IMG/VR virus record: IMGVR_UViG_3300042486_001501 | Coordinates: 1-35,829 of that record | From: a virus | Direction: 5' to 3' (one strand) | Length of the DNA stretch: 35,829 nucleotides | Shown: piece by piece, positions 12,345-27,121 of the stretch | How the letters are laid out: each line of letters begins with the position of its first letter | Numbering within the stretch: position 1 is the stretch's first letter | Notes under the pieces: model-generated | What the model saw: only the letters and a program-made list of their open reading frames with translations | The model's database searches: none | What the model was told of the DNA's origin: nothing | Position numbers and translations under genes: made by a program

Positions 12345-12347
12345 GGG

Positions 12348-12800: not shown

Positions 12801-12865
12801 GGGTGTCTCCTGCAGGCCAGCGACGCTCACGCGTCGCCGGCCAGGTCAGTGGGTGAGCGCTGGGG

Positions 12866-13762
12866 TCAGATCCAGTCGCTGACGAGCAGCTCGGCGCTGC
12901 CGGCCCACTCGTTTCCGCCGTTCTCGTCCTTCACCAGGAGCTTGCGAGCCGTGGCTTCGAGCGAAGACGGCACCACCAGCAGGTTCGGCCGAATGCCAAG
13001 CGGGCGGCCGCCATCGGCTTTGAAGCCGCGCATCGCTGCGCGCGCGGCGCCGTAGGTCGCAGCCGTCAGCGCCTCGTTGCTGCGGTAGGCCATCTGCCAG
13101 AAGCCGTAGCCGGCGTTGTGGCGTGCGCGAATGCCGTAGCGGTACTCGTCGTTGGTGAACACGCCTTCATCGTTCCGGTCGGTCATCGCCTGCAGATCAG
13201 CCGCCGCGCGCACCTGGAGGATCAGCGGCTTCAGCGCCCGACTCACGTCAAGCAGGTACCAGTTGGGGCCGGTTCCGCTGGTGTTGACGTTGCTGGTCGC
13301 GGTGACAGCGCCCGTGCCATCGGTGTTCGCATAGACCGGGTGGTCGGTGTCGAAGAAGTTCTGGCCGTCGTAGCAGAGGGTGCTGCCGCCGGCAGCCAGC
13401 AGCGCGAAGATCAGCTCATCCGGGTGCGAGGCCGCGGCGCGACCCATCTCGGCGAACAGCGGGCGGTAGATGCCGAGGTTGTCGTCTTCGATGTCGGTGC
13501 GCTTCACACCAACCGTCGCCTCGAAGGTCTTGTTGAGGATCTGGTAGGCGTCGGCCTGCATGTCCTTGACGACACGCGCGCCGATCCACTCACGCAGCTT
13601 CGGGAACTGGCCGAGCCAGCCGTAGGTGTTGCCAGCGGTGCTGCTGGGCACCGGCGTCGCCACCTTCTGCCAGTCGGTCGGCGTCGCGGTGAGAGCGGCC
13701 TGGAACTCGCCGCGAAAGCCCTGGAACAGGGCCGTGATCAGTGCATTGGTGATGAGAGCCAT
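12866..13762 (-). CDS. Major head subunit (Mu gpT-like)
   Basis: The 298-residue protein matches the Mu gpT family. The N-terminus has 'ALITNALITALFQGFRGEFQAAL', followed by 'WLGQFPKLREWIGARVVKDMQ' and 'TFEATVGVKRTDIEDDNLGIYRPLFAEMG'. The middle has 'LCYDGQNFFDTDHPV' and the C-terminal part has 'RPNLLVVPSSLEATARKLL', all hallmarks of this family. It builds the icosahedral capsid. It follows the protease/scaffold genes as in Mu, with a 64-base gap that contains a small CTCGCGA/TCGCGAG hairpin. Length is normal for the family (about 300). Confidence 0.95.
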   Translation of the reverse strand: MALITNALITALFQGFRGEFQAALTATPTDWQKVATPVPSSTAGNTYGWLGQFPKLREWIGARVVKDMQADAYQILNKTFEATVGVKRTDIEDDNLGIYRPLFAEMGRAAASHPDELIFALLAAGGSTLCYDGQNFFDTDHPVYANTDGTGAVTATSNVNTSGTGPNWYLLDVSRALKPLILQVRAAADLQAMTDRNDEGVFTNDEYRYGIRARHNAGYGFWQMAYRSNEALTAATYGAARAAMRGFKADGGRPLGIRPNLLVVPSSLEATARKLLVKDENGGNEWAGSAELLVSDWI

Positions 13763-13826
13763 GAGGAGCCTCTAGCGGTTGCGTGGTGGGGCGCGTGGGG
13801 GCGCGGTGCTCGCGAGTCGCGAGGCA

Positions 13827-14321
13827 TCAGTCGGTGGGCAGGCGCTTCGCGTACTCCTCGGGCGTCAGGCCCAGGAGGCGCGCGGCCTGCTGCTGCTCGG
13901 CGTTGAGAGCGGTCTTGGTAGCGCCCGGCGGCGGACCCTCGATGCCCGCGTCCGGGGCGATGACCGGTGCGCTGGCCACGAAGGCCTGGAAGCGCTCCAG
14001 CCCGGCGCGATCGCTGCAGGAGGCGCGGTGGTACTCGACCGAGGTCGGAGCGATCTTGCGAGCCTGCAGCGCGCTCTCGATCGCCGCATCGACGGCCGTC
14101 TTGTGGGCAGCCGTGTCGCGCTGGAGCAGCTGCTGCTCGGCGTTGGTCGCGCGCTGCAGCACCTGGTCGTAATCGGCGCGCGGCACGTAGCGCTCCAGGT
14201 TGGCGGCCTCGCTGTTCATCGCCGTTTTGAACTTGCTGATAGCAGCTAGCACAGCGGCTTCGTCAGCATCTGCGTCCACGCCAAGGGCGGACGCCACGGC
14301 GGCGGTCAGAACAAGTTTCAT
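13827..14321 (-). CDS. Head scaffold protein Z, nested in gene I
   Basis: An in-frame ATG at 14321 inside gene I has a perfect AGGAG 6 bases upstream, better than the signal in front of gene I itself. It would make the C-terminal 164 residues alone, starting MKLVLTAAV. In Mu the scaffold Z is produced the same way from the 3' part of I. The product is helical and Ala/Glu/Gln-rich, as expected for a scaffold. The presence of the internal ribosome site is seen; its use is inferred from Mu. Confidence 0.75.
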   Translation of the reverse strand: MKLVLTAAVASALGVDADADEAAVLAAISKFKTAMNSEAANLERYVPRADYDQVLQRATNAEQQLLQRDTAAHKTAVDAAIESALQARKIAPTSVEYHRASCSDRAGLERFQAFVASAPVIAPDAGIEGPPPGATKTALNAEQQQAARLLGLTPEEYAKRLPTD

Positions 14322-14798
14322 GGGTTGCTCCTGGTTGAGGGCTTGCAGCGGCAAGTTGGGCGTGTTGGTCAGCCCGGCAGACACCAGCCGCACGATGCGG
14401 CCGCTGGCGGGATCGAAGTCGAAGACCGGGCTGATGTAGCGGTACTCGCGGTTGAGCACCTGGTCGTGGCCGCGGTCGGTCCACTGCACGTCAGCCCAGA
14501 GCGCGCCGCCGCGAACGTTCAGCGCAGTGATCCAACCTGCGGCAGGTGCGGGCTCGCCCTTCGGCGCCCGGTGCTGGGTGGCGTGCTCCCAGTCAATCGG
14601 CAGCTCGACGCCGCGCTGCCCGAAGGCATCGAGCACGGCATTGATCGACGGCTGGTCGAAGGTCCACTCGCGGCCATCGCGACCTTTCACGGTGGGGCCA
14701 GCGGGGATCAGCGGAATCGCGCCAGGAACACCGGGCGCATCGCCTGCGGCGAGCAGTCCGAGTTCGGTGCAGAGAGCGAGGGTGTGAGCGGTGCGCAT
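13827..14798 (-). CDS. Head maturation protease (Mu gpI-like)
   Basis: The protein has 323 residues. The N-terminal 160 are the protease part: 'IPLIPAGPTVKGRDGREWTF', 'ELPIDWEHAT' with a His, then 'WADVQWTDRGHDQVLNREYRYISPVFDFD' and 'LVSAGLTNTPNLPLQAL'. The C-terminal 164 form the scaffold Z. It cleaves scaffold and head proteins during prohead maturation. It is the first gene of the leftward late operon and starts 35 bases after the Mor-box-like dyad. No Shine-Dalgarno is visible; instead a 7-bp hairpin (14799-14816) touches the start codon. The true transcript may be nearly leaderless. Confidence 0.9.
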   Translation of the reverse strand: MRTAHTLALCTELGLLAAGDAPGVPGAIPLIPAGPTVKGRDGREWTFDQPSINAVLDAFGQRGVELPIDWEHATQHRAPKGEPAPAAGWITALNVRGGALWADVQWTDRGHDQVLNREYRYISPVFDFDPASGRIVRLVSAGLTNTPNLPLQALNQEQPMKLVLTAAVASALGVDADADEAAVLAAISKFKTAMNSEAANLERYVPRADYDQVLQRATNAEQQLLQRDTAAHKTAVDAAIESALQARKIAPTSVEYHRASCSDRAGLERFQAFVASAPVIAPDAGIEGPPPGATKTALNAEQQQAARLLGLTPEEYAKRLPTD

Positions 14799-14816
14799 GG
14801 GGCGATTCTTCGCCCC
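14799..14816 (-). promoter_or_regulatory. Hairpin directly before the gene I start codon
   Basis: GGGGCGA-(4)-TCGCCCC makes a 7-bp stem that ends next to the ATG at 14798. Its loop and 5' arm cover the place where a ribosome site should be. It also overlaps the expected -10 of the late promoter (AAGAAT). It could hold down translation of I relative to Z; that use is inference. Confidence 0.4.
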
Positions 14817-14832
14817 GCCACCACCGCGTTGA

Positions 14833-14850
14833 GTTTCAGCGCCCTGAAAC
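14833..14850 (-). promoter_or_regulatory. Mor-box-like dyad, leftward late promoter
   Basis: GTTTCAG-CGCC-CTGAAAC is identical in 18 bases to the dyad at 27150-27167 before the other late operon. The shared sequence extends 9 bases further towards each operon (CTCA, A/G, CGCG). An AAGAAT hexamer begins 23 bases after the dyad, on the minus strand. That puts the dyad centre about 33 bases upstream of the -10, close to the arrangement of Mor at the Mu middle promoter as I remember it. Confidence 0.65.
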
Positions 14851-14910
14851 GCGCTGGGGATTGTTCGGCGGGAGACTCACGCCGAGTCGCGCGCATGATC
14901 TGCGCCGCGA

Positions 14911-14934
14911 CCACGGGTCGTCAATGACCCGCGG
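14911..14934 (-). terminator. Hairpin after the cargo block
   Basis: CCACGGGTC pairs with GACCCGCGG (9 pairs, one wobble) around GTCAAT, 20 bases beyond the stop of the membrane-anchored cargo gene. No T-run follows. It probably separates cargo transcription from the late promoter just downstream. Confidence 0.45.
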
Positions 14935-14954
14935 CCGCAAGAATGCAAACGGTG

Positions 14955-15920
14955 CTAGCGCCTCGCGGGCGTCGCGGCAACTGTGTCCGCAGCCCCGTGC
15001 AACTCCAAGAGAGTGATCTCAACCGGCACCATGCCGCCGCGGCGCTCGCTCATTCGGTAGCGCACCACCACGCGAGCTCGCACTTCCAACTTACCGGCGA
15101 GGTCATTGATGGTGACCTCATCGCCCAGGGTCAACTTCACCCTGTCATCGAACACACCGTCGAGCCTCGCGCGCCAACCGGACGTACTCGAGTCGCGGTT
15201 CATCTGGCGGATGTCGACCAGCGCGTCCTCGAACTCCTCTTCGGACTCATGAGGCTCGCCGGTGACGTCCTTCGGCATCATCCGAACCACTTCGCTCGGC
15301 ATCACAGCAGCCTCGCCGAACTTCACGGTGGCGTCGGGCTCACGGTGAGCCGGTGCCAGGATATGCGCCGCCGCCTGGGTGACGTCTTTCTTGCGGTCCC
15401 GCACCGCCGATTCGATGATGCTGGCGAAGGCCTCCGGGCTGACTTGGTAAGCCTCGGCGCCAATCGCGATGATGGTGTTGTTGTTGGCCTGGATCAGGGC
15501 TCGCTCTTCAGGCGTGGCCTCGCCAGCGGTGAAGCGGCTGACCGCGTAGGCTACGAGCGCAGCGGTTACCGCAGACAGGAAAACTGCCTTGGTCACGGGC
15601 GACCCCTTGGGTGGAAGTTCTTTGTACATACCGGCCCAATCTAGCTCGCGTACCGCCTTCTGGAACCGCTTCAAGCTGCGCTCGTTGTCGAAGATGAGCT
15701 GCAGCCAGAAGCTCTCCTTGAAGGAGCCCTGCTCGATGCCATCAACGAGCAGTTTGACCTCAAGCACCGTCGCCTGCGTGAGCTTCTTCAAGACGCCCGG
15801 CAACACTCTTTCAGATAGCCGACCCATCGCCAACAGCGAATCGACGACGTCTTGCACGGGCAGCGGCTTTTCGTTGCTGTAGACGATCGAGTGTTCAACG
15901 TACAACGCAACTTCAGTCAT
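14955..15920 (-). CDS. Membrane-anchored cargo protein of unknown function
   Basis: The protein has 321 residues. The start at 15920 has AGGAGG upstream; the longer frame to 16016 is rejected. The N-terminal about 115 residues (ALYVEHSIVYSNEKPLPVQDVVDSL...) form a mixed domain. One hydrophobic segment follows at about residues 118-136 (AVFLSAVTAALVAYAVSRF). After it comes a likely cytosolic domain with an acidic patch (HESEEEFEDALVDI) and a final beta-rich part. I do not recognise the family. It sits between the repressor side and the late operon, is transcribed with the immunity block, and is bounded by hairpins. This is the usual place for lysogen-expressed cargo such as exclusion or defence genes; that role is inference. 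Confidence 0.7.
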   Translation of the reverse strand: MTEVALYVEHSIVYSNEKPLPVQDVVDSLLAMGRLSERVLPGVLKKLTQATVLEVKLLVDGIEQGSFKESFWLQLIFDNERSLKRFQKAVRELDWAGMYKELPPKGSPVTKAVFLSAVTAALVAYAVSRFTAGEATPEERALIQANNNTIIAIGAEAYQVSPEAFASIIESAVRDRKKDVTQAAAHILAPAHREPDATVKFGEAAVMPSEVVRMMPKDVTGEPHESEEEFEDALVDIRQMNRDSSTSGWRARLDGVFDDRVKLTLGDEVTINDLAGKLEVRARVVVRYRMSERRGGMVPVEITLLELHGAADTVAATPARR

Positions 15921-16026
15921 CCGGAATCCCCTCCTGCCGGCACATAGGTCGGCGCCAGCTTGCAGCCGACGCATTTGGCATGAGCGCGACCGGCGGCCGC
16001 GCCCACGGTCTAGCAAGGTCCGCGAC

Positions 16027-16221
16027 TCAGTCTTTCGGCGGCAGCCGCTCTTCTGCTATGCGCACCGCTTCTTCCTCAGTCTCTAGCGGCCCTTCGCCCC
16101 AGCCCGGCACCACGTACGACCCATCGGGCTCGATGCGCTGGATGTGCACCTCGCGACCACTTGGGCCACGCACATAGAGGTCTCGAATCTTGGGCTTGTC
16201 GTCATCGAACATGGGCTTCAC
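16027..16221 (-). CDS. Small acidic cargo protein
   Basis: The protein has 64 residues with a clear GAGGAG upstream of the ATG at 16221. It is charged, with an N-terminal 'DDDKPKIRDLYVRGPSGREVHIQRIEPDG', a middle 'YVVPGWGEGPL' and a C-terminal helix rich in Glu. No domain is recognised. It is preceded by an AT-rich promoter-like palindrome (16263-16276) and lies upstream of the membrane-anchored gene, so the two may be expressed together from that promoter in the lysogen. Confidence 0.65.
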   Translation of the reverse strand: MKPMFDDDKPKIRDLYVRGPSGREVHIQRIEPDGSYVVPGWGEGPLETEEEAVRIAEERLPPKD

Positions 16222-16265
16222 TCCTCGAATGGATGTTTGCGCGGCCCTACGGCCGCCTGCGCGCG

Positions 16266-16296
16266 TTTATAAACGCCAGCCGGCCCGACCCGCCAA
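16266..16296 (-). promoter_or_regulatory. Predicted promoter of the cargo genes
   Basis: On the minus strand TTGGCG (16296-16291) is followed after 17 bases by TTTATA, within TTTATAAAC. The -10 part lies in a perfect 14-bp palindrome, GCGTTTATAAACGC (16263-16276), a rare AT-rich island in this GC-rich element. A further hairpin, GCGGCC-CTAC-GGCCGC (16241-16256), is in the leader. It points at the gene starting at 16221. Confidence 0.55.
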
Positions 16297-16367
16297 CACT
16301 CGCCGCGCCCAGGGGCTGGGAGCGGCTCACAGCGCCTCTCTTGATCGCGCGATCTGAAACGAGAAAT

Positions 16368-16395
16368 CCCGGCGTCGCAGTGTGCGAGCGCCGGG
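16368..16395 (-). terminator. Terminator after the secreted cargo protein
   Basis: CCCGGCG-TCGCA pairs with TGCGA-(G)-CGCCGGG, 12 pairs with one bulged G and a 3-base loop. On the minus strand it is followed by ATTTCTCGTTT. It starts 22 bases beyond the stop at 16417. This is a convincing intrinsic terminator. Confidence 0.75.
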
Positions 16396-16416
16396 GTTGC
16401 GAACAGCTCGTGGCGA

Positions 16417-17364
16417 TCAGTTCGACTGGGCGCGCTTGGCGGACTCCATCTCCGCAGCAACCTCGGCCGCCCATGCCTGGATGTAGGCCGGAGCCTCGCC
16501 CTGCATTTCCATTGCCTTGGCCAGCTCGGCATCACGCACTTCCGCTGCAAGCGACTTGTCCTGCGCTGCAGGACCGCTCAGCGGCGTTGCGACGTCCGCG
16601 CGATCCCTGACGCGCACCGCCACCATCGGGTTGCCACTGCCAGTCGGCGATCCGGTCTTGAGGTAAAGCCAGTAGCGACCGCCGAGCGAGCGATTCGCGC
16701 CTGCCGGGTAGACGAAGAGCTTGTAGTAGCTGGTCGAGGAGTCCAGCAGCGCCAGGTACTCACCACGGGACTGCTCGAAGGACGCCAGGCCCAGACCCGC
16801 AGAGCTGTACCGGCGGCGCATCTGCACGTACTGGGTTCCGTTGCTGCCTGTGAACGGGCGGTCGAACACCAGGAACTCGCTATCACCTAGACCCACGACG
16901 TTCATGGCGAAAGCCCACTCGCCCCACAGCCTGTCATCGCGCTGCGGATAGCCGAACATGAACTTCTGCAGCTGCACTGTCTCGCCGGCCTGGGTCAACG
17001 TCGCGCGCTCATCGCCCTCAAAGACGATGGTCAATGCGCCTGGGCTGGTGGTCTGCTCAGGTGCGCGGTAGGCGCAACCGATGCACTGGCCGTTGCGGAA
17101 ACCCAGCAGTGATGCGTTGAGCGTGCGCGTGCCAGGGTTGTACGTGCCGGTGCTGATGTACCACTGCGGCGAGCCGTCCTGGGCGAAGGTGTAACTGGCC
17201 ACCACCATCGTGTTGTTCTGGGAAACGATGAACCAGCCGCGGCCGGACTGGCTCGGGTTCCACCACACGCCGTCCTCCGGCGCGAGTGCGTGAGCCTGCG
17301 GCAGGCAGGCGAAGAGCAGCGCGAGCAGCGCTGCCGAGAAGATTGCTGTGACCCCTGATTTCAT
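16417..17364 (-). CDS. Secreted cargo protein with a GVWWNPSQSGRGW repeat-type domain
   Basis: The 315-residue protein has a clear signal peptide (MKSGVTAIFSAALLALLFACLPQAHA, cleavage near residue 26). The mature N-terminus reads 'APEDGVWWNPSQSGRGWFI', then 'ASYTFAQDGSPQWY' and 'NPGTRTLNASL'. I recall this module from exported proteins of Xanthomonadales and relatives, where its function is not established. One Cys pair (CIGC) could bind metal or form a disulfide. The C-terminal 50 residues are helical and charged. A host-type exported protein on a prophage suggests lysogenic conversion. It is bounded by its own gap upstream (17365-17526) and a terminator downstream. Confidence 0.75.
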   Translation of the reverse strand: MKSGVTAIFSAALLALLFACLPQAHALAPEDGVWWNPSQSGRGWFIVSQNNTMVVASYTFAQDGSPQWYISTGTYNPGTRTLNASLLGFRNGQCIGCAYRAPEQTTSPGALTIVFEGDERATLTQAGETVQLQKFMFGYPQRDDRLWGEWAFAMNVVGLGDSEFLVFDRPFTGSNGTQYVQMRRRYSSAGLGLASFEQSRGEYLALLDSSTSYYKLFVYPAGANRSLGGRYWLYLKTGSPTGSGNPMVAVRVRDRADVATPLSGPAAQDKSLAAEVRDAELAKAMEMQGEAPAYIQAWAAEVAAEMESAKRAQSN

Positions 17365-17513
17365 TGATCGACTCCATCGAGATGCGAGAACGCTGCCGGC
17401 TCAGCTTGACCCCGGTACTGGCCGCGCCGGGTTGCGCGATTGGGCTTCCGGCAGCGCAAGGACATGGTGGCGCGCGGAGGCGGCCACCGGTATCGGCGAA
17501 ATGCCGAATGAGG

Positions 17514-17531
17514 GGTAGGAGTTTTCCTACC
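17514..17531 (-). terminator. Hairpin overlapping the stop of the 17527 gene
   Basis: GGTAGGA-GTTT-TCCTACC is a perfect 7-bp stem whose one arm includes the TAG stop at 17527-17529. No strong T-run follows on the minus strand. It may be a terminator or mRNA 3' end for the repressor transcript. Confidence 0.45.
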
Positions 17532-18042
17532 GGATGTCACGGGCACCGAGCGGGTGCCAGTTGCTCCGATGCAAGAGATGCGCCTGCACAGCCTCCAGCT
17601 TGCCGGCCACAGCTCGACAAGCCCTTGCGAGCTGCGCCTCGCGCTTGAGGCCGAACAGCCAGCCCAGCACCCCAGCGCCGATCGCGACCATCCAGCCCGC
17701 CATCATGAAGTCGGACGGCAAGTGCTTCATCGCGAGCAGTCCGAACACCGGCGGGCTCATGGCCATGCCGATGGTGAGGATCGACGCGTTGGAATGGCGC
17801 CTCTGCAGATGCTCCAGCTGAGCGGCGAGGCGGTGCTGCTCCTCCACCAGCTCGGCCGTCAGATAGGCCGCATAGCTCTCCCGGCTCGACGCGTTGAAGT
17901 TGACCTGGTTGTTATTGCCTTGCACCGCCACGTTGCCGGTGCCGCCGACCCGCTGCCGGAGAACCGACTCAGCATCGTCCGCAGGCGTTGAATCCCCAAC
18001 AAGGGCGCGAGCGCGCGCCCGAAGTGCATCTTCGTCAAACAT
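17527..18042 (-). CDS. Membrane protein with VQGNNNQVN motif, beside the repressor
   Basis: The protein has 171 residues. An N-terminal cytosolic part (1-40) is followed by 'GNVAVQGNNNQVNFNASS' at about 35-52. A charged helix follows, then two hydrophobic segments at about 91-106 and 112-131 (GMAMSPPVFGLLAM, MMAGWMVAIGAGVLGWLFGL), and a basic C-terminus. I recall 'V.GNNN.VN'-type motifs from small proteins near signalling and defence effectors, but this is not decisive. It lies directly downstream of the repressor (73-base gap) and is probably co-transcribed, so it should be made in the lysogen. Superinfection exclusion is a reasonable guess. Confidence 0.7.
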   Translation of the reverse strand: MFDEDALRARARALVGDSTPADDAESVLRQRVGGTGNVAVQGNNNQVNFNASSRESYAAYLTAELVEEQHRLAAQLEHLQRRHSNASILTIGMAMSPPVFGLLAMKHLPSDFMMAGWMVAIGAGVLGWLFGLKREAQLARACRAVAGKLEAVQAHLLHRSNWHPLGARDIR

Positions 18043-18115
18043 CCCCTGTTTCTCCCATAGGCGCGGAAGTCCGCGCGGTTGCGATCTCAGGGCATGGCTT
18101 TCTCAGCCGCTGCGA

Positions 18116-18565
18116 CTACGCCGCGGCGCGCACCAATCGAAGCACGTTGGACTTCGCCTGCTGCTCAGGCCCTGCCGTGAGTTGGTACGCAACAACGATG
18201 AGTTCGGCGAGTTTCGCCGGAGGCAACTTCCGCTTGATCTCGGCCAAGCCTTCGAAGACGCCCTCTGCTGCCAGGCGTAGCCGATGCTCGTCCGTGATCT
18301 GCACGGGCTGCTCTTTTGGAGAATCTGTCGACGTCGACGGATTTGGGGATCCCGTCGATCCGGTGAGGATGTACATCACGTCAAGACCAGCGAGAGCAGC
18401 GCGCGCGAGAACTTCAGCGCCGGGCGATGCGAGCCCACGCTCGTACTTTCCCCACATCTCGCGAGACACCCCGCAAAGCTCTGCAGCCTTGGTTTGGCTG
18501 AGTCCTGCGGCTGTCCGCTGCTCAGAAATTCGAGAACCAAAGTTCACGCTCACGCCCCTTGACAT
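18116..18565 (-). CDS. Prophage repressor, Cro/CI-type HTH
   Basis: The protein has 149 residues. Residues about 13-57 form a helix-turn-helix of the Xre/CI type (LSQTKAAELCGVSREMWGKYERG). A Pro/Ser/Thr linker (NPSTSTDSPKEQP) follows, then a C-terminal helical domain that may oligomerise. No Ser-Lys peptidase pair of LexA/CI cleavage type is visible. It is transcribed leftward, head to head with the Ner-like gene. Its start codon overlaps the -35 of the early promoter and there is no Shine-Dalgarno. Two similar palindromes, one upstream of its start and one inside codons about 7-11, are likely operators. It keeps the early operon off in the lysogen. Confidence 0.85.
   Translation of the reverse strand: MSRGVSVNFGSRISEQRTAAGLSQTKAAELCGVSREMWGKYERGLASPGAEVLARAALAGLDVMYILTGSTGSPNPSTSTDSPKEQPVQITDEHRLRLAAEGVFEGLAEIKRKLPPAKLAELIVVAYQLTAGPEQQAKSNVLRLVRAAA
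18322..18343. repeat. Near-perfect palindrome with core GTCGACGTCGAC (copy 1)
   Basis: AATCT-GTCGACGTCGAC-GGATT is a 22-base palindrome with one mismatched pair. It lies in the linker-coding part of the repressor gene at 51 percent of the element length. It shares the 12-base core and AT-rich shoulders with the copy at 19856-19881. Confidence 0.7.
18532..18547. promoter_or_regulatory. Second operator-like palindrome, in the repressor gene
   Basis: GAGAAC-CAAA-GTTCAC differs at one arm position from the perfect palindrome at 18567-18582. The centres are 35 bases apart, on nearly the same face of the helix (about 3.3 turns). It lies in the start of the repressor gene. Confidence 0.6.
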
Positions 18566-18587
18566 GGAGAACTAAAGTTCTCATCCT
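18559..18587 (+). promoter_or_regulatory. Early promoter of the lytic operon
   Basis: TTGACA (18559-18564) is a perfect -35. After exactly 17 bases comes CATCCT (18582-18587), a weak -10 with 3 of 6 matches. The spacer is the operator palindrome, so repressor binding would block polymerase. It points to the Ner-like gene at 18626. Confidence 0.65.
18567..18582. promoter_or_regulatory. Operator palindrome in the early promoter
   Basis: GAGAAC-TAAA-GTTCTC has perfect 6-bp arms and fills the spacer between the -35 and -10 of the early promoter. A sister site lies at 18532-18547. It is the best candidate binding site for the repressor or the Ner-like protein. Confidence 0.75.
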
Positions 18588-18625
18588 GTGCCTGCCCCAT
18601 TCACAACAGGCAGGCAGGATAGCAA

Positions 18626-18886
18626 GTGAACACGAACGTCCCACCCCCGAGCCGAGAACTGCTGCTCAAGGTCAAGGCTCACTTCGTCGGGAAGGGCACC
18701 ACGCTCGCAGCCTGGTGCCGCGACAACAAGGTCGACCAGTCGCATGCGCGCCAAGCACTGCTTGGAAGTTGGGATGGCCCTCGCGGCCGCGCCGTGCGCC
18801 TGAAGTTGGCCACCGAGGCTGGCATCACCGCCGATCCCACGCCGTCGCAAAAGCCCGCCGCCAAGCGCGGCAAGGCGGCCGCATGA
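18626..18886 (+). CDS. Ner-like early DNA-binding regulator
   Basis: The protein has 86 residues and a GTG start at 18626 with AGGCAGGA upstream. 'LAAWCRDNKVDQSHARQALLGSWDGPRGRAVRLKLATEAGI' reads as a helix-turn-helix of the type found in early regulators of B3-like transposable phages. The C-terminus is basic (KPAAKRGKAAA). It is the first gene of the lytic operon, opposite the repressor, as ner is in Mu. It should turn down the early and repressor promoters after induction. Its stop overlaps the next start as ATGA. Confidence 0.75.
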   Translation: MNTNVPPPSRELLLKVKAHFVGKGTTLAAWCRDNKVDQSHARQALLGSWDGPRGRAVRLKLATEAGITADPTPSQKPAAKRGKAAA

Positions 18887-19116
18887 GGCCCTCGACCCTC
18901 CGCGCGGGCGACACCCTGCGCCGTGTCTCCGGCGTCGGCGCCAACCCGACCCGTGTCTTCGTCTTCGTCCGCATCGAGCCGGGCCGCGCCGGCCGCCGAG
19001 CTGACGCCGTCCTGCAGTGCGAGGACTACCGCGGCTTGAACGGTCCCGACGATGCCGGCCTCTGCACGGTCAGCACAGGCGAGCTGGCCCGCCACTTCCA
19101 GCAGGTGCCGGCATGA
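18883..19116 (+). CDS. Small early protein of unknown function
   Basis: The protein has 77 residues and starts at 18883 in an ATGA overlap with the Ner-like gene. It is mostly beta-prone: 'LRAGDTLRRVSGVG', 'FVFVRIEPGRAGRRADAVLQCEDYRG' and 'CTVSTGELARHFQQV'. No domain is recognised. Its stop again overlaps the following start, so it is translationally coupled in the early operon. Confidence 0.65.
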   Translation: MRPSTLRAGDTLRRVSGVGANPTRVFVFVRIEPGRAGRRADAVLQCEDYRGLNGPDDAGLCTVSTGELARHFQQVPA

Positions 19117-19232
19117 ACCCGCGCCGCCGCACCACCGACCTGGATCGCCGCCAGCCAGGGCTTGTGTTCTCCGGCCTGCTCGTGGTGACCGGCTGGCTTC
19201 TGATGCTGGCCGCTGCCCTGGGGTGGATCTAA
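19113..19232 (+). CDS. 39-residue single-span membrane protein
   Basis: The start at 19113 overlaps the previous stop as ATGA, and its stop overlaps the next start as TAATG. The first 14 residues are basic (NPRRRTTDLDRRQ). They are followed by one hydrophobic helix (LVFSGLLVVTGWLLMLAAALGWI) to the end. This is the layout of a small inner-membrane peptide with the N-terminus inside. Its function is unknown. Confidence 0.6.
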   Translation: MNPRRRTTDLDRRQPGLVFSGLLVVTGWLLMLAAALGWI

Positions 19233-19534
19233 TGAGCGCCCCCGCCGTGCTGACGCGCGCATGGGCCGTCATCCAGGCGCTGTCCGGGCACGCCTTCGAA
19301 GGCCGACGCCTCAAGGACGTTGCCGAGACTGTGCAGCAGTCCCCGCCAACAACGCTGCGCGACCTCGAAGCGCTGGAAGACATCGGCCTGGCCGAGCGCA
19401 TGCCAGGCCGCCCCGACTGCTGGCGCCTGTCGCCGCGCCTCGTGCAGCTGGCCCACGCCCACCAGGCGCAGATGGCGCGGCTGCGCGAGCGGCTTGACGC
19501 CTTCGATCACACCTACACCCGCACCCCGAACTGA
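19232..19534 (+). CDS. IclR-like winged-helix early protein
   Basis: The protein has 100 residues. Residues about 5-70 (TRAWAVIQALSGHAFEGRRLKDVAETVQQSPPTTLRDLEALEDIGLAERMPG...WRLSPRLVQLAHAHQ) match the DNA-binding half of IclR-type regulators. The ligand-binding half is missing, and a short helix follows. Proteins of this size are common in the early region of B3-like phages. It probably binds DNA during lytic growth; the target is unknown. It is coupled at both ends by overlapping stop and start codons. Confidence 0.75.
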   Translation: MSAPAVLTRAWAVIQALSGHAFEGRRLKDVAETVQQSPPTTLRDLEALEDIGLAERMPGRPDCWRLSPRLVQLAHAHQAQMARLRERLDAFDHTYTRTPN

Positions 19535-20436
19535 TGAGAGCCCCGACGATGCCAAAGAACGCCACCCCCATTTCCGGCGAGCTGGTTCAGCGCGACGCCG
19601 AGTACAACCGCACCACCCAGTTGCTGGTCGCCGAGTTCGGGGAGGGGTTGCATTGGGACCCCGACCACTACACCGCCGCCATCGCGGCCGAGATGAAGCG
19701 CGGCTGCGAAGCCTTCCTGCGCGCCGGTCGCCTGCTCGTGGTCGCCAAGGGCTGCGCCAGCCACGGCGAATGGTCCGGCATGCTGGGCCGGCTCGGCCTG
19801 GAGTCGCGCCAGGCGCAGCGAATGATGGAGGCCGCCCGCCGCGTCGCCGCGCTGCCAAATGCGTCGACGTCGACGCATTTGCTCGAAGCCGCCGGCAGCC
19901 CCAGCAAGCTGATCGAGCTGCTCAGCCTGCCCGAAGACCAGTTCACACAGCTCGCCGAAGAGGGTGAAACGGGCGAGCTGAGCCTCGACGACGTCGCCAA
20001 GATGGGCGTGCGCGACCTGCGCAATGCAGTGCGCGAAGCCCGCGCCGACCTCGACGCCAAGGACGAGCGCGCCGCCGAGCGCGAACGCAAGATCGAGGCG
20101 CTGCAGAAGGAGCTGCGGAAGGCCAAGGGCCAGCGCGAGCGCGCCACACCGGACGAGCGTGCGGCCGAACTGCGCACGCTGACCACCACCACACAGATGC
20201 ACCTGGTCGCCGCGGTGCACGCCCAGGGCGAGGACGCCGACAGCCTGTTCGAGCGCTTCCGCAGCCTTCGCGAAGCCGCCGAGCTGGCGGGTGATGCCGG
20301 CGAGCACGATGACTTCATGGCCGGCCTGGTTGGCGACCTGCTCGGCCAGCTGCGCCGCCTGCGCGACACCTTTGGGTTGCCGCCGGTGAACGACGGCGCG
20401 TGGATTGCCGAGCAGCTCAAGAAGGTCGGGGGCTGA
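19534..20436 (+). CDS. DUF3102-like early protein with coiled coil
   Basis: The protein has 300 residues if started at 19534 (overlapping the previous stop); an ATG at 19549 would give 295. The N-terminal 100 residues (RDAEYNRTTQLLVAEFGEGLHWDPDHYTAAIAAEMKRGCEAFLRAGRLLVVAKG) match a phage DUF3102-like domain. It continues 'GEWSGMLGRLGLESRQAQRMMEAARRV', which is like the substrate-recognition helix region of such proteins. A long charged coiled coil spans about 165-215. The gene carries a perfect 26-base palindrome in codons for NASTSTH. It lies directly before the transposase. A role in DNA binding or replication control is likely but not known. Confidence 0.7.
   Translation: MRAPTMPKNATPISGELVQRDAEYNRTTQLLVAEFGEGLHWDPDHYTAAIAAEMKRGCEAFLRAGRLLVVAKGCASHGEWSGMLGRLGLESRQAQRMMEAARRVAALPNASTSTHLLEAAGSPSKLIELLSLPEDQFTQLAEEGETGELSLDDVAKMGVRDLRNAVREARADLDAKDERAAERERKIEALQKELRKAKGQRERATPDERAAELRTLTTTTQMHLVAAVHAQGEDADSLFERFRSLREAAELAGDAGEHDDFMAGLVGDLLGQLRRLRDTFGLPPVNDGAWIAEQLKKVGG
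19856..19881. repeat. Perfect 26-bp palindrome with core GTCGACGTCGAC (copy 2)
   Basis: The arms CAAATGCGTCGAC and GTCGACGCATTTG are exact reverse complements with no spacer. The core and AT shoulders match the palindrome in the repressor gene (20 of 24 bases alike). It lies inside an early gene, where such symmetry is not explained by coding. Confidence 0.85.
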
Positions 20437-20438
20437 GC

Positions 20439-22247
20439 ATGGCCGCCGTGCACTCGCCCGCACTGCTGGAACAGCTGGCCGACGTCGCCCGCGCAGCCGC
20501 CGCGGCAGGTCACGGCGGCAAGTCCCGCGTGTACGAGGCCGCAGCCCAGCGCATGGGCTGCTCAGTGGCGACGCTACTCCAGCGCCTCAAGCTGGTGCGC
20601 GTTGGCGCACCTCGCAAGCGCCGCGCCGATGCGGGCGGGCATGCGCTCACTCGCGATGAAGCCGCCTTGATCGCGGCGACGGTGGAAGAGACACGACGCC
20701 TGACCGGCACCGGCGCGCTCGCGTTGGAGCACGCGGTCGAGATCCTCCGCAGCAACGGCAAGATCGCGGCCGGCCGTGTGGACACCGACACCGGCGAGTT
20801 CACGCCGCTGAGTGTGAGCGCGATCCGCCGCGCGCTGCGCCACTACAACATGCACCCGGAGCAACTGGCCGAGCCCACACCAGCCGCGCGCCTGCAGAGC
20901 CCGCACCCGAACTGGTGCTGGCAGATCGACGCATCGGTGAGCCGCCAGTTCTACCTTGCCGACGATGGCACCCGGGTGATGCCCGAGCGCGAGTTCTACC
21001 GCGGCAAGCCCGGCAACCTGGTGGCGATCAACGACTACCGCCTCTGGCGCTACGTGGTCACCGACCACGCCAGCGGCGCGCTGGAGGTGCTGTACGTGCG
21101 CGGCGCGGAGAGCAGCGCAAACGTGCTGGCCAGCTTGATCCACGCCATGACGCGCCGTGCGGACGGCACCATGCACGGCGTGCCGCGACACCTGATGGCC
21201 GACCCCGGCAGCGCCATGAAGAGCCAGGTCACGGCGAACCTGTGCGCGGCACTCGGCATCAACCTGATCATCAACGAGGTGGGCAACGCCCGCGCCAAGG
21301 GCCAGGTCGAGAACGCGCAGTACCTGTGGGAGCGCAGCTTCGAAGCGGCCCTGAAGCTGCGCGCCCCGGTGACCAGCCTGGAAGAGATCAACCGGCTGGC
21401 GGCCGAGTTCGCGCGCAACTTCAATGCCACCGCGATCCACAGTCGCACCGGAACAACGCGCCGCGATGCTTGGCTTCGCATCACTCGCGAGCAGCTGATC
21501 GAGGCGCCGAAGGTGGAGACCCTGCGCGCCTTGGCGACGACGGTGCCGGTGCCGCGCCGGGTTCGCGACTACCGCGTCAAGCACGGCGGCCGCGTGTGGG
21601 ACCTGACCGGTCTGCCGGGCGTCCTGAACGGCGCCCAGGTCGAGGTGGTGATCAACGCGCTGGACCCCACCACGCTGCGGGTTGTCGTGACCGGCGACGA
21701 CGGTCGCCCTGGCTACTACTTGGCACCTGAGATTCGCACCGGCGAGTACGGCTTCGAGCTGGGCGCAGCGACCATCGGCGAGAACTTCCGCGCGCCGCCT
21801 GAGACGCCGACCGACGCTGCCCGCAAGGAGATCGATCGTCTGGCGATGGGCGTGGCCAGCGACGCCGAGGCAGCCGCAGCGCGCAAGACGAAGCGCCTGG
21901 CCTTCGGCGGCACCGTGGACCCGCTGAAGCCGAGTCGCGAGCTGGAGGTTGTGCCGGCGCTGCCGCGCGCCTCAACGCCCAGCACGGTCGCAGCGCCCGC
22001 CGAGGTCGAGCCCGCGCCGCGGCTGCCGCAGATCAACCCTGTCTGGCAGGCGCAGGTGCTGTCGCACGAGGACATGGCCCGCGGCCTCAAGCGCCGCGTG
22101 GAAGCGCTCGGCGGGACTTGGGATGCGGCCCAGATGTACGCGCAGATGGTCCAGCGCTGGCCTGACGGCGTGATCGAGGACGAGCTCGATGCGTGCGCTA
22201 CGGCGCTGCTGCGCGGCGGCCTGCGGGTAGTTGGGGGTGCGGCATGA
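20439..22247 (+). CDS. Transposase, MuA-like (DDE recombinase)
   Basis: The 602-residue protein catalyses strand transfer of the phage ends into target DNA for both integration and replication. The start is at 20439; an in-frame ATG at 20400 lies within the upstream gene. The N-terminal 150 residues contain helix-turn-helix regions for end binding. The catalytic triad is visible: D164 (WQIDAS), D255 (MADPGS) and E291 (GQVENAQ), with D and E 35 residues apart. The stretch about 380-470 is the beta-barrel-like domain (WDLTGLPGVLNG...). The C-terminal 100 residues would contact MuB. It overlaps the ATPase gene by ATGA. The likely binding boxes are at both element ends. Confidence 0.95.
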   Translation: MAAVHSPALLEQLADVARAAAAAGHGGKSRVYEAAAQRMGCSVATLLQRLKLVRVGAPRKRRADAGGHALTRDEAALIAATVEETRRLTGTGALALEHAVEILRSNGKIAAGRVDTDTGEFTPLSVSAIRRALRHYNMHPEQLAEPTPAARLQSPHPNWCWQIDASVSRQFYLADDGTRVMPEREFYRGKPGNLVAINDYRLWRYVVTDHASGALEVLYVRGAESSANVLASLIHAMTRRADGTMHGVPRHLMADPGSAMKSQVTANLCAALGINLIINEVGNARAKGQVENAQYLWERSFEAALKLRAPVTSLEEINRLAAEFARNFNATAIHSRTGTTRRDAWLRITREQLIEAPKVETLRALATTVPVPRRVRDYRVKHGGRVWDLTGLPGVLNGAQVEVVINALDPTTLRVVVTGDDGRPGYYLAPEIRTGEYGFELGAATIGENFRAPPETPTDAARKEIDRLAMGVASDAEAAAARKTKRLAFGGTVDPLKPSRELEVVPALPRASTPSTVAAPAEVEPAPRLPQINPVWQAQVLSHEDMARGLKRRVEALGGTWDAAQMYAQMVQRWPDGVIEDELDACATALLRGGLRVVGGAA

Positions 22248-23419
22248 CCCTGCGCCTGCGCGCCGTGCTCGACGACGCCGGAATCAAGCATGCGGCCGTC
22301 GCCGATGCCTGCGGAGTGAGCAAAGCCACGCTCTCGCTGCTGCTGACTCGCGGCCAGTGGCCCCGCCGCAAAGACCTCGCCGCGCAGCTGCGCGACGGCA
22401 TCACTTCGTTCCTGGCGTCGCGCGGCCTTGCGGCCACCGACGCCTTCAAGAAGGCCCCGCCGCGCAGCAACGCGGCGGGGCCGGTTGCCCCCGCTGTAAC
22501 CCCGACTGAGACCACAAACGAGGACCCCGACATGCTACTGCGAAAGCAATCCCTCACCCCTGCGGCGCGCCAGCACTTCCAGCTGGCCCGCGACCCGTTC
22601 ACCGAGTGCCGCGAGCCGGCCGACGTGTTTCTGAGCCCCGACGCCCGCTATGTGCGCGAGGCGATGTGGAGCGTGTGTCGGCACGGAGGATTCCTGGCCG
22701 TGGTCGGCGAGAGCGGCGCCGGCAAGTCGACGCTGCGCGAAGAGCTGGTCGAGCGCATCCAGGCTGAGTCACCCGGCACGATCCTGGTGCAGCCCTACGT
22801 GCTGGCCATGGAAGACAAGGACAGCGTGGGCAAGACCCTCCGCAGCCAGCACATCGCCGAGGCGATTGTGCGGGCGGTGGCCCCCCTGGCCAAGACCATG
22901 AGCAGCCCCGAGGCGCGCTTCCGCCAGCTGCACGAAACCCTGCGCGACAGCCACCGCACCGGCGCGCGCCACGTGCTGCTGATCGAAGAAGCGCACTGCC
23001 TGCCGGTCCCGACCTTGAAGCACCTGAAGCGCTACCTCGAACTCAAGGACGGCATGAAGCCGCTGATGAGCGTGATCCTGCTGGGTCAGCCCGAGCTGGC
23101 ACTGAAGCTCAACGAGCAGGACCCGGGCGTGCGCGAGGTGGTGCAGCGGATCGAGCTGGTGCCGCTGGCACCGCTCGACCAACACCTTGAGGCCTATCTG
23201 CAGCACCGCTTTCAGCGCGCCGGAGTGAAGCTCGCCGACGTGGTCGATGCCTCGGGCCTCGAAGCGCTGCGCGCCCGACTGACGCCTGCACAGGGCCGTC
23301 AGCGCGGATCGCTGCTGTACCCGCTGGCGGTCCACAACTGCCTGGCCGCTGCAATGAACGCTGCTGCTGAGCTGGGTGCACCGAAGGTCACCAAGGGTGC
23401 GTTCGGAGGTGCGTCATGA
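22244..23419 (+). CDS. MuB-like AAA+ ATPase, target selection
   Basis: The 391-residue protein would bind DNA, select targets away from the phage itself and activate the transposase. The start at 22244 overlaps the transposase stop. The N-terminal 60 residues hold a helix-turn-helix (AVADACGVSKATLSLLL). The ATPase domain has Walker A GESGAGKST at about 155-163 and Walker B VLLIEE at about 244-249, followed by AHCL. It resembles the ExeA/TniB-type group that includes MuB proteins of B3-like phages. The helix-turn-helix plus ATPase layout is the same as in Mu B, with a longer linker (about 65-100). Confidence 0.93.
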   Translation: MTLRLRAVLDDAGIKHAAVADACGVSKATLSLLLTRGQWPRRKDLAAQLRDGITSFLASRGLAATDAFKKAPPRSNAAGPVAPAVTPTETTNEDPDMLLRKQSLTPAARQHFQLARDPFTECREPADVFLSPDARYVREAMWSVCRHGGFLAVVGESGAGKSTLREELVERIQAESPGTILVQPYVLAMEDKDSVGKTLRSQHIAEAIVRAVAPLAKTMSSPEARFRQLHETLRDSHRTGARHVLLIEEAHCLPVPTLKHLKRYLELKDGMKPLMSVILLGQPELALKLNEQDPGVREVVQRIELVPLAPLDQHLEAYLQHRFQRAGVKLADVVDASGLEALRARLTPAQGRQRGSLLYPLAVHNCLAAAMNAAAELGAPKVTKGAFGGAS

Positions 23420-23667
23420 GCGCACCGGACGTCTTCCACCCCAACTCAACCGAGTGCCCTTCCTGCAAGACCCGCTGGGACATCGTGGGTGATGTCTACA
23501 TCACTGGCCTTGTGCAGCCCGAGGATGACCTGCTGCGCCAGGCAAAGATCGGAATCGCTATTGGCTGTCCCGGCTGCGATCTGGACTTTGAGGTTTGGCT
23601 GCCGCTGAACACCTTCCAGCAGATGCAATCGGCCGACGATGGCTCGGAGGTGTGCGATGGGAACTGA
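23416..23667 (+). CDS. Small zinc-ribbon-like early protein
   Basis: The protein has 83 residues and starts in an ATGA overlap with the ATPase gene. Two CxxC pairs, C14/C17 (ECPSCK) and C51/C54 (GCPGCD), are spaced as in a zinc ribbon. Between them lies 'WDIVGDVYITG'. No family is recognised. It may bind nucleic acid or a protein partner. It is the first of several small uncharacterised genes between the ATPase and DUF3164. Confidence 0.65.
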   Translation: MSAPDVFHPNSTECPSCKTRWDIVGDVYITGLVQPEDDLLRQAKIGIAIGCPGCDLDFEVWLPLNTFQQMQSADDGSEVCDGN

Positions 23668-24073
23668 CACGCACATCCCGCTGACTGATTCACCCCCGAC
23701 CGAAGCCGAGCGCACGCGCCTGCTGGGTCTGCTCGATGAGCTTGCCGGCGTCTTGGGCATGCCTTCTGACTGGGGCACCGGCACGCGCATTGCGCAGTTC
23801 GGATTCGACGTGCTGCGCCTGCGGTTCCTGCTGCGCAGTGCCTCCACGGTGCAGGACATGGATGCCGAAGAGGCGCGCATCAACGCGATGATCGAAGCCG
23901 CGGCAAGCGCGCAGGGCGCGATCGCAGCGGACGAGAGCATCACGGCGCAGGTTCGGTTGTCGCTGCTCGGGATGCTCGCTGAGAGTGCCGATGAGCTGTG
24001 CGGCGTCATCGTTCGGCAGCAGGGTCAAGCCGCGCTGCATCTGAGTCAGGCTGCGCCGGGCGGTGCCGCATGA
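23657..24073 (+). CDS. Early protein of unknown function, helical
   Basis: The protein has 138 residues with the start at 23657, overlapping the preceding gene by 11 bases; the ATG at 23639 is rejected as it lies deeper in that gene. It is almost all helix: 'TEAERTRLLGLLDELAGVLG', 'DVLRLRFLLRSASTVQDMDAEEARINAMIEAAASAQG' and 'VRLSLLGMLAESADELCGVIV'. There is no membrane segment. It is coupled to the next gene by ATGA. Its function is unknown. Confidence 0.6.
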   Translation: MGTDTHIPLTDSPPTEAERTRLLGLLDELAGVLGMPSDWGTGTRIAQFGFDVLRLRFLLRSASTVQDMDAEEARINAMIEAAASAQGAIAADESITAQVRLSLLGMLAESADELCGVIVRQQGQAALHLSQAAPGGAA

Positions 24074-24372
24074 GCGCCGTGATGGAGGCCGCCACCGACG
24101 CACCGCTCGACCCGTGGAACGAAGCGTTCCGCCGCGGATGCGCAGCAGCGCTGTCCGCTGTGTACGCCGCGCAGGACGTCGGCAGTTCGGTGCTCGGCAT
24201 CGACATCACGGGCCCGAACCCGCGCGTGCTGATATCGCCGCCCGCACAGCCGAGCCTGCTGCCCGGCGCCATGCGCAAGCGCGAGAGCCGCGGCGGATGC
24301 ATGCGAGTGCTGATGGTCGCCGTTCGCCATGGCGCCTTGATCGAGTGGGAAATCACTCGGGAGGTGCGGTGA
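24070..24372 (+). CDS. Early protein of unknown function
   Basis: The protein has 100 residues with an ATGA start. The N-terminal helix 'WNEAFRRGCAAALSAVYAAQ' is followed by beta-prone 'VLGIDITGPNPRVLIS' and a final 'RVLMVAVRHGALIEWEITREV'. No known domain is seen. It overlaps the next start by one base (TGATG). Confidence 0.6.
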   Translation: MSAVMEAATDAPLDPWNEAFRRGCAAALSAVYAAQDVGSSVLGIDITGPNPRVLISPPAQPSLLPGAMRKRESRGGCMRVLMVAVRHGALIEWEITREVR

Positions 24373-24569
24373 TGCGTGGGCCAGCTCAAGAGCACCGCCG
24401 GCTCACCGCGATGCGCGTCGCGCTGTGGTGCGCAGCTCAGCCGCGTTGCCCTACACCGCAGCAGATCGCTAAGCACTTCCGCATGAAGTTGATGACTGCG
24501 CGTGAGCACCGCAGCGACTTCCTCACCGCTCGCACTCCGCCGGCGCCTGGGGAGTTGCCGCATGGATGA
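24372..24569 (+). CDS. Small HTH-like early protein
   Basis: The protein has 65 residues. 'RVALWCAAQPRCPTPQQIAKHFRMKLMTAREHRSDFL' has the shape of a helix-turn-helix, with the likely recognition helix at about 43-53. It starts with ATG overlapping the previous stop. It could be a small DNA-binding protein; the target is unknown. Confidence 0.6.
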   Translation: MRGPAQEHRRLTAMRVALWCAAQPRCPTPQQIAKHFRMKLMTAREHRSDFLTARTPPAPGELPHG

Positions 24570-24708
24570 GGACGAGATTCCGCGGCCGTGGCTCGCGTGT
24601 GTTGAAAACGCTTTCTACGACATCTTTCGCAACCAGTACGAAGCCGAGCAGGACGAGGCCGACAGGCGCGCTGCGGCGGCAAAACAGGAGCAACCCGATG
24701 AGCGATGA
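24562..24708 (+). CDS. 48-residue acidic early protein
   Basis: The start at 24562 overlaps the preceding gene by 8 bases, and the gene overlaps DUF3164 by 11. The sequence is 'DEDEIPRPWLACVENAFYDIFRNQYEAEQDEADRRAAAAK', acidic and helical. No domain is known. It is accepted because of position and coupling, with modest certainty. Confidence 0.5.
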   Translation: MDEDEIPRPWLACVENAFYDIFRNQYEAEQDEADRRAAAAKQEQPDER

Positions 24709-25318
24709 ATCCATTCCCGCAGGCTACCGTCGCGACACCCAGGGCCGCCTGGTGCCGGAGAGCCAGATTCGCCCCATCGACCTGGCTCGCGACGAGCTGG
24801 TGCAGGCGCTGGTGCGTGACGCACTGCCGCTGCGCGACCAGCTGCTCGACTACCGCACACGCGCGTTCGCTGACATTCAGGCCTTCATCGAGCTGAGCGC
24901 TGAGCAGTACAACGCGAAGGTCGGCGGCGCGAAAGGCAACGTGACCCTGCTCAGCTACGACGGCGAGTACAAGGTGCAGCGCGCGATTGCTGAGAGCATC
25001 GTCTTCGACGAGCGCCTGCAGGCGGCCAAGGCCCTCATCGATGAGTGCCTGCGCGAGTGGACGCAGGACGCGCGCGCAGAGATTGCCACCCTGGTGCAGG
25101 ACGCCTTCCGCGTCGATGGCAGCGGCAACATCCGCACCGGCAGCGTGCTGGGGCTTCGTCGGCTGGCGATCGACGATCACCGCTGGCAGGAGGCCATGCG
25201 CGCGATCGGCGAGGCTGTGCAGGTCGTCGGCAGCAAGACCTACCTGCGGCTCTACAAGCGGACCGCGACCGGCGCCTATCAGCCGATCAGCCTCGATATC
25301 GCGGCGGTGGTGCCATGA
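24698..25318 (+). CDS. DUF3164 family early protein
   Basis: The protein has 206 residues with the start at 24698. It matches DUF3164: 'IPAGYRRDTQGRLVPESQIRPIDLARDELVQALV', then 'LSAEQYNAKVGGAKGNVTLLSYDGEYKVQRAI', then 'FDERLQAAKALIDECLREWT' and the C-terminal 'RWQEAMRAIGEAVQVVGSKTYLRLYKR'. This family is nearly always present in the early region of Mu-like phages. No biochemical role is established that I know of. It overlaps the following gene by ATGA. Confidence 0.9.
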   Translation: MSDESIPAGYRRDTQGRLVPESQIRPIDLARDELVQALVRDALPLRDQLLDYRTRAFADIQAFIELSAEQYNAKVGGAKGNVTLLSYDGEYKVQRAIAESIVFDERLQAAKALIDECLREWTQDARAEIATLVQDAFRVDGSGNIRTGSVLGLRRLAIDDHRWQEAMRAIGEAVQVVGSKTYLRLYKRTATGAYQPISLDIAAVVP

Positions 25319-25536
25319 ACTCGCGTAGCGCAGCAAGGCTACGGGAGCGGGCCGCCAAAGCGGTCATCAAGAAGGCTTGCGCCGCGGCAGAAGCGGTCGA
25401 AGCCTACACGCGCGCATGCATCGCTTGTGCTGACGGCACAGGCCCGAGCGGCCCGGATGATGACCGCTATGCGCTCGTCAGAAGGTTGCGCGAGTACTCG
25501 GCATTCCTTGAGCGCAAGTACGGGGCGCCAGCATGA
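25315..25536 (+). CDS. Small early protein of unknown function
   Basis: The protein has 73 residues with an ATGA start and an ATGA end. It is basic at the N-terminus (RSAARLRERAAKAVIKKACAAAEAVEAYTRACIAC) and mostly helical. No domain is recognised. Confidence 0.55.
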   Translation: MNSRSAARLRERAAKAVIKKACAAAEAVEAYTRACIACADGTGPSGPDDDRYALVRRLREYSAFLERKYGAPA

Positions 25537-27098: not shown

Positions 27099-27121
27099 CC
27101 CGCTGCTAGAGTCCACCCCCG

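Follow-up and report, generated by a model that had tools for sequence, protein, structure and literature searches.

A putative DUF3102 protein–palindrome pair in transposable phages, with mixed palindrome arrays in candidate satellites

The 35,829-nucleotide IMG/VR record IMGVR_UViG_3300042486_001501 (hereinafter the window, i.e. the whole stretch of DNA that was analysed) holds a transposable phage. In the early region of this phage, a gene for a DUF3102-like protein lies between a gene for a small IclR-type helix-turn-helix (HTH) protein and those for transposases A and B, an arrangement shared with Stenotrophomonas phage phiSHP3 and Pseudomonas phages PM105 and Ps59; the functions of the neighbouring genes are assigned from profile matches. 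The DUF3102-like gene contains a long palindrome (site 1; Table 1). Comparison of relatives indicates that the DUF3102 protein very probably binds DNA as a dimer and in a sequence-specific manner, and that the palindrome is its cognate site, usually the only one in the phage.

The initial annotation reported two palindromes with a common core, one in the DUF3102-like gene and the other in the repressor gene, and the sequence bears this out. The second palindrome (site 2) is a 22-mer, AATCTGTCGACGTCGACGGATT, at 18322-18343, with one mismatched pair; the two sites are alike in 20 of 24 bases and share the core GTCGACGTCGAC, which is found exactly twice in the window, and the translations across them read N-A-S-T-S-T and N-P-S-T-S-T, respectively. 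To estimate chance expectation, the window was resampled 300 times with a first-order Markov model. A perfect 26-mer appears in just 1 of the 300 copies (mean 0.003), and site 1 is therefore significant by itself; 22-mers that are perfect or have a single mismatch are common by chance (mean 1.4 per copy, 3 observed), so that site 2 is of interest through its likeness to site 1 alone. Site 1 is identical in a set of relatives (L001-L003, L005-L007, L012-L013 and L017). The window's copy in the repressor gene is absent from close relatives. Being off the code of the window's own DUF3102-like protein (arms CT/CC; see below) and not aligned in close relatives, site 2 is probably weak or a relic. 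A weak third copy (site 3) has the counterpart CAAA[AT]CCGTCGACGTCACCCGATTTG in two close relatives.

Among relatives collected via the protein, independently of the palindrome, a perfect palindrome is kept at the same codons down to ~33% protein identity, with sequences such as CAAATCGTGCGACGTCGCACGATTTG (L004), CAAATGCGTCGCGCGCGACGCATTTG (L008), CCAAATGCGTCGCATGCGACGCATTTGG (L014), CAAAAGCGCCAACGTTGGCGCTTTTG (Ps59, ~33% identity) and many more, and the peptide encoded across it varies widely (NASTST, NRATSHD, NVATSQH, NHSHAND, KAPTLAL). In the 62 unique in-gene sites, the CAAA ends are near-invariant and 98-100% paired; bases 6-9 of the half-site carry only 0.2-0.7 bit of information, yet are 94-98% paired, compared with the ~30-47% that is expected from composition, as calculated from base counts. 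Because the palindromes stay perfect while bases change on both sides, it is evidently the symmetry of the DNA rather than the peptide that is kept. The initial annotation had proposed that the DNA, not the protein, is kept, and had named as contrary evidence relatives that retain the amino acids without the symmetry; the opposite is found. A gene-blind scan of IMG/VR with the pattern CAAATNNNNCGACGTCGNNNNATTTG gave 98 matches, counted as sequences and not as independent events, given the redundancy of IMG/VR and the possibility that its records are fragments. All four free pairs are complementary in 71 of the 98 (chance 1/256 each) and three in another 24. Some two thirds of the matches fall within a gene of the DUF3102 family; of the others, most have such a gene within a few kb, where the flank sufficed; typically, there is one good site per ~38-kb phage. 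A different recurrent palindrome, TGTATTTTTGCGCGCGCAAAAATACA, is present in two Ps59-type relatives (L104:442-467 and L103:1601-1626). Phage phiSHP3 (L018:3568-3591) and L009-L011 (3202-3225) have, in the repressor gene, a 24-base near-palindrome, TTCAGCCAGGTCGACCTGCCTGAA, that has only GTCGAC in common with the family.

The variable bases of the palindrome track particular residues of the protein. In the aligned proteins, the loop encoded by the palindrome is preceded by the motif Z-x-A-X-R, where Z is residue 92 and X is residue 95. When half-site bases 6-7 are GC, residue 95 is Q in 38 of 42 cases; CG goes with R (11/12) and GG with K (4/4), and further classes are CA with H or Y, TC with G or N, TT with S or A, and GT with A, V, S, H, F or W. 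Base 8 follows residue 92: G goes with R, H or Y (59/61), T mostly with S or T, and C with D, K or S. Covariation scores computed with overall identity matched (20-60%) and with the palindrome-coded residues 108-118 left out are highest at residues 95 (0.64) and 92 (0.44) for bases 6-7, at residue 92 for base 8 (0.55) and at residue 124 for the centre, bases 10-13 (0.54). This code is read off the same data set that it summarises, and the nearest to an independent test are sites outside the DUF3102 gene, together with PM105. A site outside the gene has no trivial link to the protein through the peptide that it encodes; for 9 of the 12 such sites, the rule derived from in-gene sites gives the correct arm (permutation P 5e-5). 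In PM105, the protein has Thr92 and Phe95 and the expected arm is GTT; the sole candidate in all 39,593 bases is CATATGTTGCGCCATCGCAACATATG at 11180, in the repressor gene. PM105 had been considered as a counter-example until this off-consensus site appeared. Out-of-gene sites reside in HTH repressor genes in 7 of the 9 cases tested, and the repressor gene is, judging from these positions, a general second location of the site. Copies with odd arms are either off-code second copies or members of the arrays described below. Among the binders that the initial annotation had listed, the residue–arm covariation and the out-of-gene prediction thus single out the DUF3102-like protein; the repressor loses ground, given that it is DUF3102 residues with which the arm covaries. 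A partition-like role, another of the listed candidates, may also apply.

The window protein matches the Pfam family DUF3102 (PF11300) at 19.3 bits (E 0.0014), below the 24.4 cut-off, and PHROG 1748 (function unknown); DUF3102 is matched by 40 of the 44 family members in the alignment A3, with the best E-value of 3.3e-8. In the AlphaFold model, the HTH comprises helices 79-87 and 91-105, with residues 92 and 95 on the second of these, and residue 124 opens the helix 123-129, which is followed by a coiled coil (159-203); R92 and Q95, on the predicted recognition helix, and residue 124, at a helix start, are modelled with predicted local distance difference test (pLDDT) values of 87 and 92. Sequence searches of PDB with the DUF3102-like protein yielded weak matches to repeat proteins alone. 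The DUF3102 protein of a transposable prophage in Stenotrophomonas genome G055 (L293; G055:C1:1045390-1046322) is 88% and 94% identical to that of L017 in the N-terminal and C-terminal parts, respectively, and only 27% identical in the middle part, which is the DNA-binding domain; such an apparent domain swap is consistent with selection to change specificity.

Palindromes with differing arms also form arrays, in records L139, L128 and L200. L128 is an autonomous phage that has its own cognate site and, in addition, an array of other specificities. A host repeat of the repetitive extragenic palindrome or bacterial interspersed mosaic element (REP/BIME) type was considered and rejected: no copy exists in 59 of the 61 Stenotrophomonas genomes, and in the two that have the pattern, the copies lie in a prophage or in phage-like array elements. 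The initial annotation had named many copies in the host genome as contrary evidence. One of these two genomes, G055, carries two array elements (Table 1). Both start with TGTTC, end with TACA, have 6-bp duplications (CTATTC and GATGGG), and match phiSHP3 in their termini (left TGTTCAGGGGTGAGATATATCAGGGGG vs TGTGCAGGGGTGAGATATATCAGGGGG, right TGTACCGGCGCGCGATAAAT vs TGTAACGGCGCGCGATAAAT). They encode a Mor-family activator, a tail assembly chaperone, a tape measure protein and a shortened head protease/scaffold; no transposase was recognised among their open reading frames (ORFs), and Pfam and PHROGs scans of five ORFs revealed no integrase or master repressor. In the related array record L200, DUF3102 was not found. 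The element in L139 has no blastn match to L276; the isolate that carries it also carries a DUF3102 phage, L055, and the GTTGCC-type site class of L055 is present in the L139 array. The array sites closely follow the repertoire of the phages: 41 of the 44 have one of the 29 arms, out of 256 possible, that occur in phage DUF3102 genes (11% expected), and 24 of the 44 share an exact 8-base half-site with a phage (0.1% expected). Searches for further satellites via Mor proteins recovered known records alone. The arrays in L128 (5990-6470) and L200 (8640-9100) also hold other palindromes, for example CTCCGCAAAATTGCGGAG, which is AT-centred, and AAAAGCGACACGGTGTCGCTTTTG; these are perhaps sites of other protein families. 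By their gene content and termini, the G055 array elements and L200 are candidate satellites of transposable phages, and mixed-specificity arrays would let them be recognised by the DUF3102 proteins of several helpers.

The pairing of a DUF3102-family protein with a palindrome in its own gene is hardly in doubt, and the fuller account, in which the two evolve in a coupled manner, is likely. Under this account, the palindrome would be an operator-like or centromere-like binding site for the protein encoded by the gene that houses it. The protein would act as a homodimer with a ParB/SopB-like HTH, each copy reading one 13-base half-site; the ends of the half-sites would be the near-fixed CAAA, bases 6-9 would be read by the recognition helix, with residue 95 reading bases 6-7 and residue 92 base 8, and the centre would be read through residue 124. 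Symmetry would persist because the two halves have to be matched by identical copies of one protein, and a change of the protein's specificity would therefore change both halves; to judge from the covariation, the recognition residues of one protein and both halves of one palindrome are indeed evolving together. In a given phage, usually a single good site would be kept, housed either by the DUF3102 gene or by the gene for the repressor. The role of the site is a more tentative matter: it may, at somewhat below even chances, serve in self-identity or loading. The early protein would then label or arrange the phage's own genome, be it for packaging, segregation or replicative transposition, and phages would have diverged in specificity.

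Several observations weigh against the binding-site account. Sites 2 and 3 of the window are both off the code of the window's own protein, a clean in-gene site is missing in some records (phiSHP3 and L009-L011 are degenerate in this respect) and no site is present within the 39 kb of the G055 transposable prophage that were examined. The code itself is imperfect: the in-gene class GT goes with several residues at position 95, and 3 of the 12 out-of-gene sites (L075, L186 and L193) break the rule. On the structural side, neither the full-length nor the domain-only models have a significant fold match in PDB; SopB, Spo0J and Noc recur in the fold searches at E-values of 1.5-7, none of them significant. 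The ParB/Srx CTPase domain (ParBc) is not among the Pfam families listed as matching members of A3, and no ParA-like partner was found among the genes scanned, the adjacent ATPase being transposase B (AAA_22). Phage phiSHP3 (L018:3568-3591) and L009-L011 (3202-3225) have, in the repressor gene, a 24-base near-palindrome, TTCAGCCAGGTCGACCTGCCTGAA, that has only GTCGAC in common with the family.

The phage in the window begins with TGTAGCGGCGCTCGATAAAT.. and ends with ..CTCGGGAACA, and the close relative G002 has the same ends together with a 6-bp target duplication, AGTGAA; in the window phage itself, a target duplication is not visible. With these termini, the placement of the palindromes at 51% and 56% of the element, as calculated in the initial annotation, is right. 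At 30582-35652, to the right of the early region, are the portal and Mu F genes, and to the left of it, on the other strand, are the capsid and tail genes; in phiSHP3 and PM105, unlike the window, the early region is near one end. The Mu F-like protein (33685-34911) has a C-terminal PBECR3 nuclease-like domain (Pfam PF18812, E 1.3e-9), possibly a toxin domain. In the early operon of B3-like phages, most of the genes are given no function in the paper on Fc02 (PMC9936078).

Table 1. Features of the window (positions without prefix) and of the array-bearing elements.
Feature	Position	Strand	Description
Transposable phage	127..35652 (right end ~35652)	.	5'-TG..CA-3' termini
HTH (XRE-type) repressor gene	18116..18565	-	Second docking location in related phages
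Site 2	18320..18345		Weak related palindrome within repressor gene
Ner-like early gene	18626..18886	+	Relative in phage Gregale annotated as Ner-like antirepressor
Small IclR-type HTH protein	19229..19534	+	Upstream of DUF3102-like gene
DUF3102-like protein (P0001, 300 aa)	19534..20436	+	Predicted HTH DNA-binding domain and long coiled coil; putative site 1 binder
Predicted recognition helix	19804..19848	+	Residues 91-105; R92 and Q95, putative specificity residues for half-site bases 6-8
Site 1	19856-19881		Perfect 26-bp palindrome CAAATGCGTCGACGTCGACGCATTTG, arm GCGT, centre ACGT, within DUF3102-like gene
Residue 124 (Ser)	19903..19905	+	Start of helix 123-129; covaries with palindrome centre (bases 10-13)
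Transposase A	20439..22247	+	Directly downstream of DUF3102-like gene; rve integrase core, under curated cut-off; synteny with annotated transposase A
Transposase B	22193..23419	+	AAA ATPase (AAA_22)
Site 3	34590-34615		Weak third copy TAAAACCGTCGACGTCACCCGATTTG within Mu F-like gene
Array element, G055 chromosome	L276:9124-17988		8865 bp; 8 mixed palindromes beside left end
Array element, G055 chromosome	L277:8437-17399		8963 bp; 8 mixed palindromes beside left end
Second array-bearing element	L139:900-10600, array 3922-5806		Mor, shortened protease, tape measure, tail fibre and Bro-N genes

The main rival of a loading or identity mark is an autoregulatory operator or roadblock: the DUF3102 protein would bind in its own gene or in the repressor gene and block transcription, tuning the early genes or shutting off the repressor, and helper induction would be sensed, in the satellites, by the array, which lies upstream of the Mor gene. 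The residence of the sites in the DUF3102 gene, which belongs to the early operon, or in the repressor gene is compatible with such regulation, and so is the end of the G055 satellite array, ~90 bp ahead of the Mor start. A block of the early operon would have the opposite effect to a block of the repressor, yet both locations serve; moreover, the sites are in the middle of genes, not at promoters, and the L128 array is downstream of the repressor gene. An operator is, on these grounds, unlikely, and a loading or identity mark is favoured over a promoter operator because the site can reside in either of two genes and has no fixed place along the genome. This variable position also bears on the proposal, made in the initial annotation, of a central gyrase or pairing site like the strong gyrase site (SGS) of phage Mu. 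The site is at 51-56% of the element in the window, and the DNA is what is kept, as would befit an SGS, but it is central in the window's own clade only and is ~18-28% from one end in most relatives, and gyrase has no need of phage-specific arms that follow a phage protein; a site of this kind is extremely improbable. The arrays, for their part, might be decoys, with foreign sites that soak up the DUF3102 proteins of competing phages and inhibit rather than recruit. That an autonomous phage with its own site, L128, carries an array of other specificities speaks for this possibility, whereas the presence of arrays in candidate satellites that lack a transposase, have phage termini and would need a helper speaks for recruitment; for the arrays, and for these only, a decoy function is possible, if not the expected one.

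Other alternatives dispense with a DNA-binding protein altogether. Compensatory changes in an RNA hairpin, in which the palindrome in the mRNA would form an 11-bp stem with a 4-base loop, would look much like the changes observed, and in the L200 array, symmetry is weaker at the central bases than in the arms. In the in-gene sites, the would-be loop is symmetric as well, with pairing in 98% at base 12 and in 84% at base 13; the mismatches on the sense strand (A.C 18 vs G.T 7) betray no preference for G.U; and the arm tracks residues of the DNA-recognition type, all of which makes a hairpin very improbable. Quasipalindrome correction, a template-switch mutation, would produce symmetric change without any protein, and could help the two arms to change together. 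As the sole cause, i.e. a neutral self-correction that keeps palindromes perfect in the absence of selection on symmetry, it sits poorly with the fixed length of 26 bp and the near-invariant CAAA ends, with the confinement of the palindromes to DUF3102-bearing phages and related elements, and with a residue–arm code that holds for sites both inside and outside the gene, and hardly any credence is given to it. Symmetry free of sequence (a cruciform) was considered for two copies with different arms in one phage and dropped in view of the arm–residue code.

Among known systems, the DUF3102 pair appears to work most like ParB-family proteins with parS, without a claim of membership in that family. 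ParB/Noc (Spo0J), SopB and KorB, with their sites parS, NBS, sopC and OB, are HTH dimers that bind a palindrome, often near or in their own gene, and the specificity of ParB-type proteins depends on few residues in and beyond the HTH. For DUF3102, a dimeric HTH protein with a palindromic cognate site is strongly implied by covariation and the out-of-gene prediction. Unlike ParB-family proteins, the DUF3102 protein has a short N-terminus and a long coiled coil, no CTPase domain was detected in it and no ParA gene was identified; unlike parS, the site is 26 bp long, comes in ~29 natural arm types and is carried by a phage that transposes replicatively. The diversification of ParB/Noc specificity has been studied (PMC7383237). 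ParT, a ParB-like protein of the Streptomyces plasmid SCP2, is reported to load at parS in a CTP-independent manner (PMC12260392); it belongs to a plasmid partition system, unlike the phage DUF3102 protein, and the two are likened by description, not by homology. The SGS of Mu is also a cis site within the genome of a transposable phage, from which the palindrome differs in that a central location is not kept and the sequence follows the phage protein. The array elements resemble phage-inducible chromosomal islands (PICI) and P4 satellites in being small, in lacking recognised replication genes and in having parts of the late gene set (Mor activator, tape measure, shortened protease/scaffold); they differ in their transposable-phage termini, 6-bp target duplication and mixed array of DUF3102 sites, and in that no integrase was recognised among the ORFs examined.

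In searches of open-licence papers, no title or abstract on DUF3102 describes such a site, and none that came up describes satellites of transposable phages. The broadest formulation is that a highly diversified protein–site pair (~29 natural arm types), hidden inside coding sequence, is the means by which transposable phages recognise DNA as their own, and that a new class of satellites carries polyvalent arrays through which many different helpers would serve them or be disarmed; the chances that it holds as a whole appear evenly balanced. For DUF3102, a domain of unknown function, the pair would provide a candidate function and a DNA target, and it would constitute a natural recognition code in which ~29 half-site arms are read by two or three residues. 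It would also be a case of a regulatory or centromere-like site that is maintained within coding sequence at the peptide's expense. The arrays make candidate satellites of transposable phages recognisable, and the pair may help to explain how transposable phages, while replicating, distinguish their own DNA from that of the host or of a rival.

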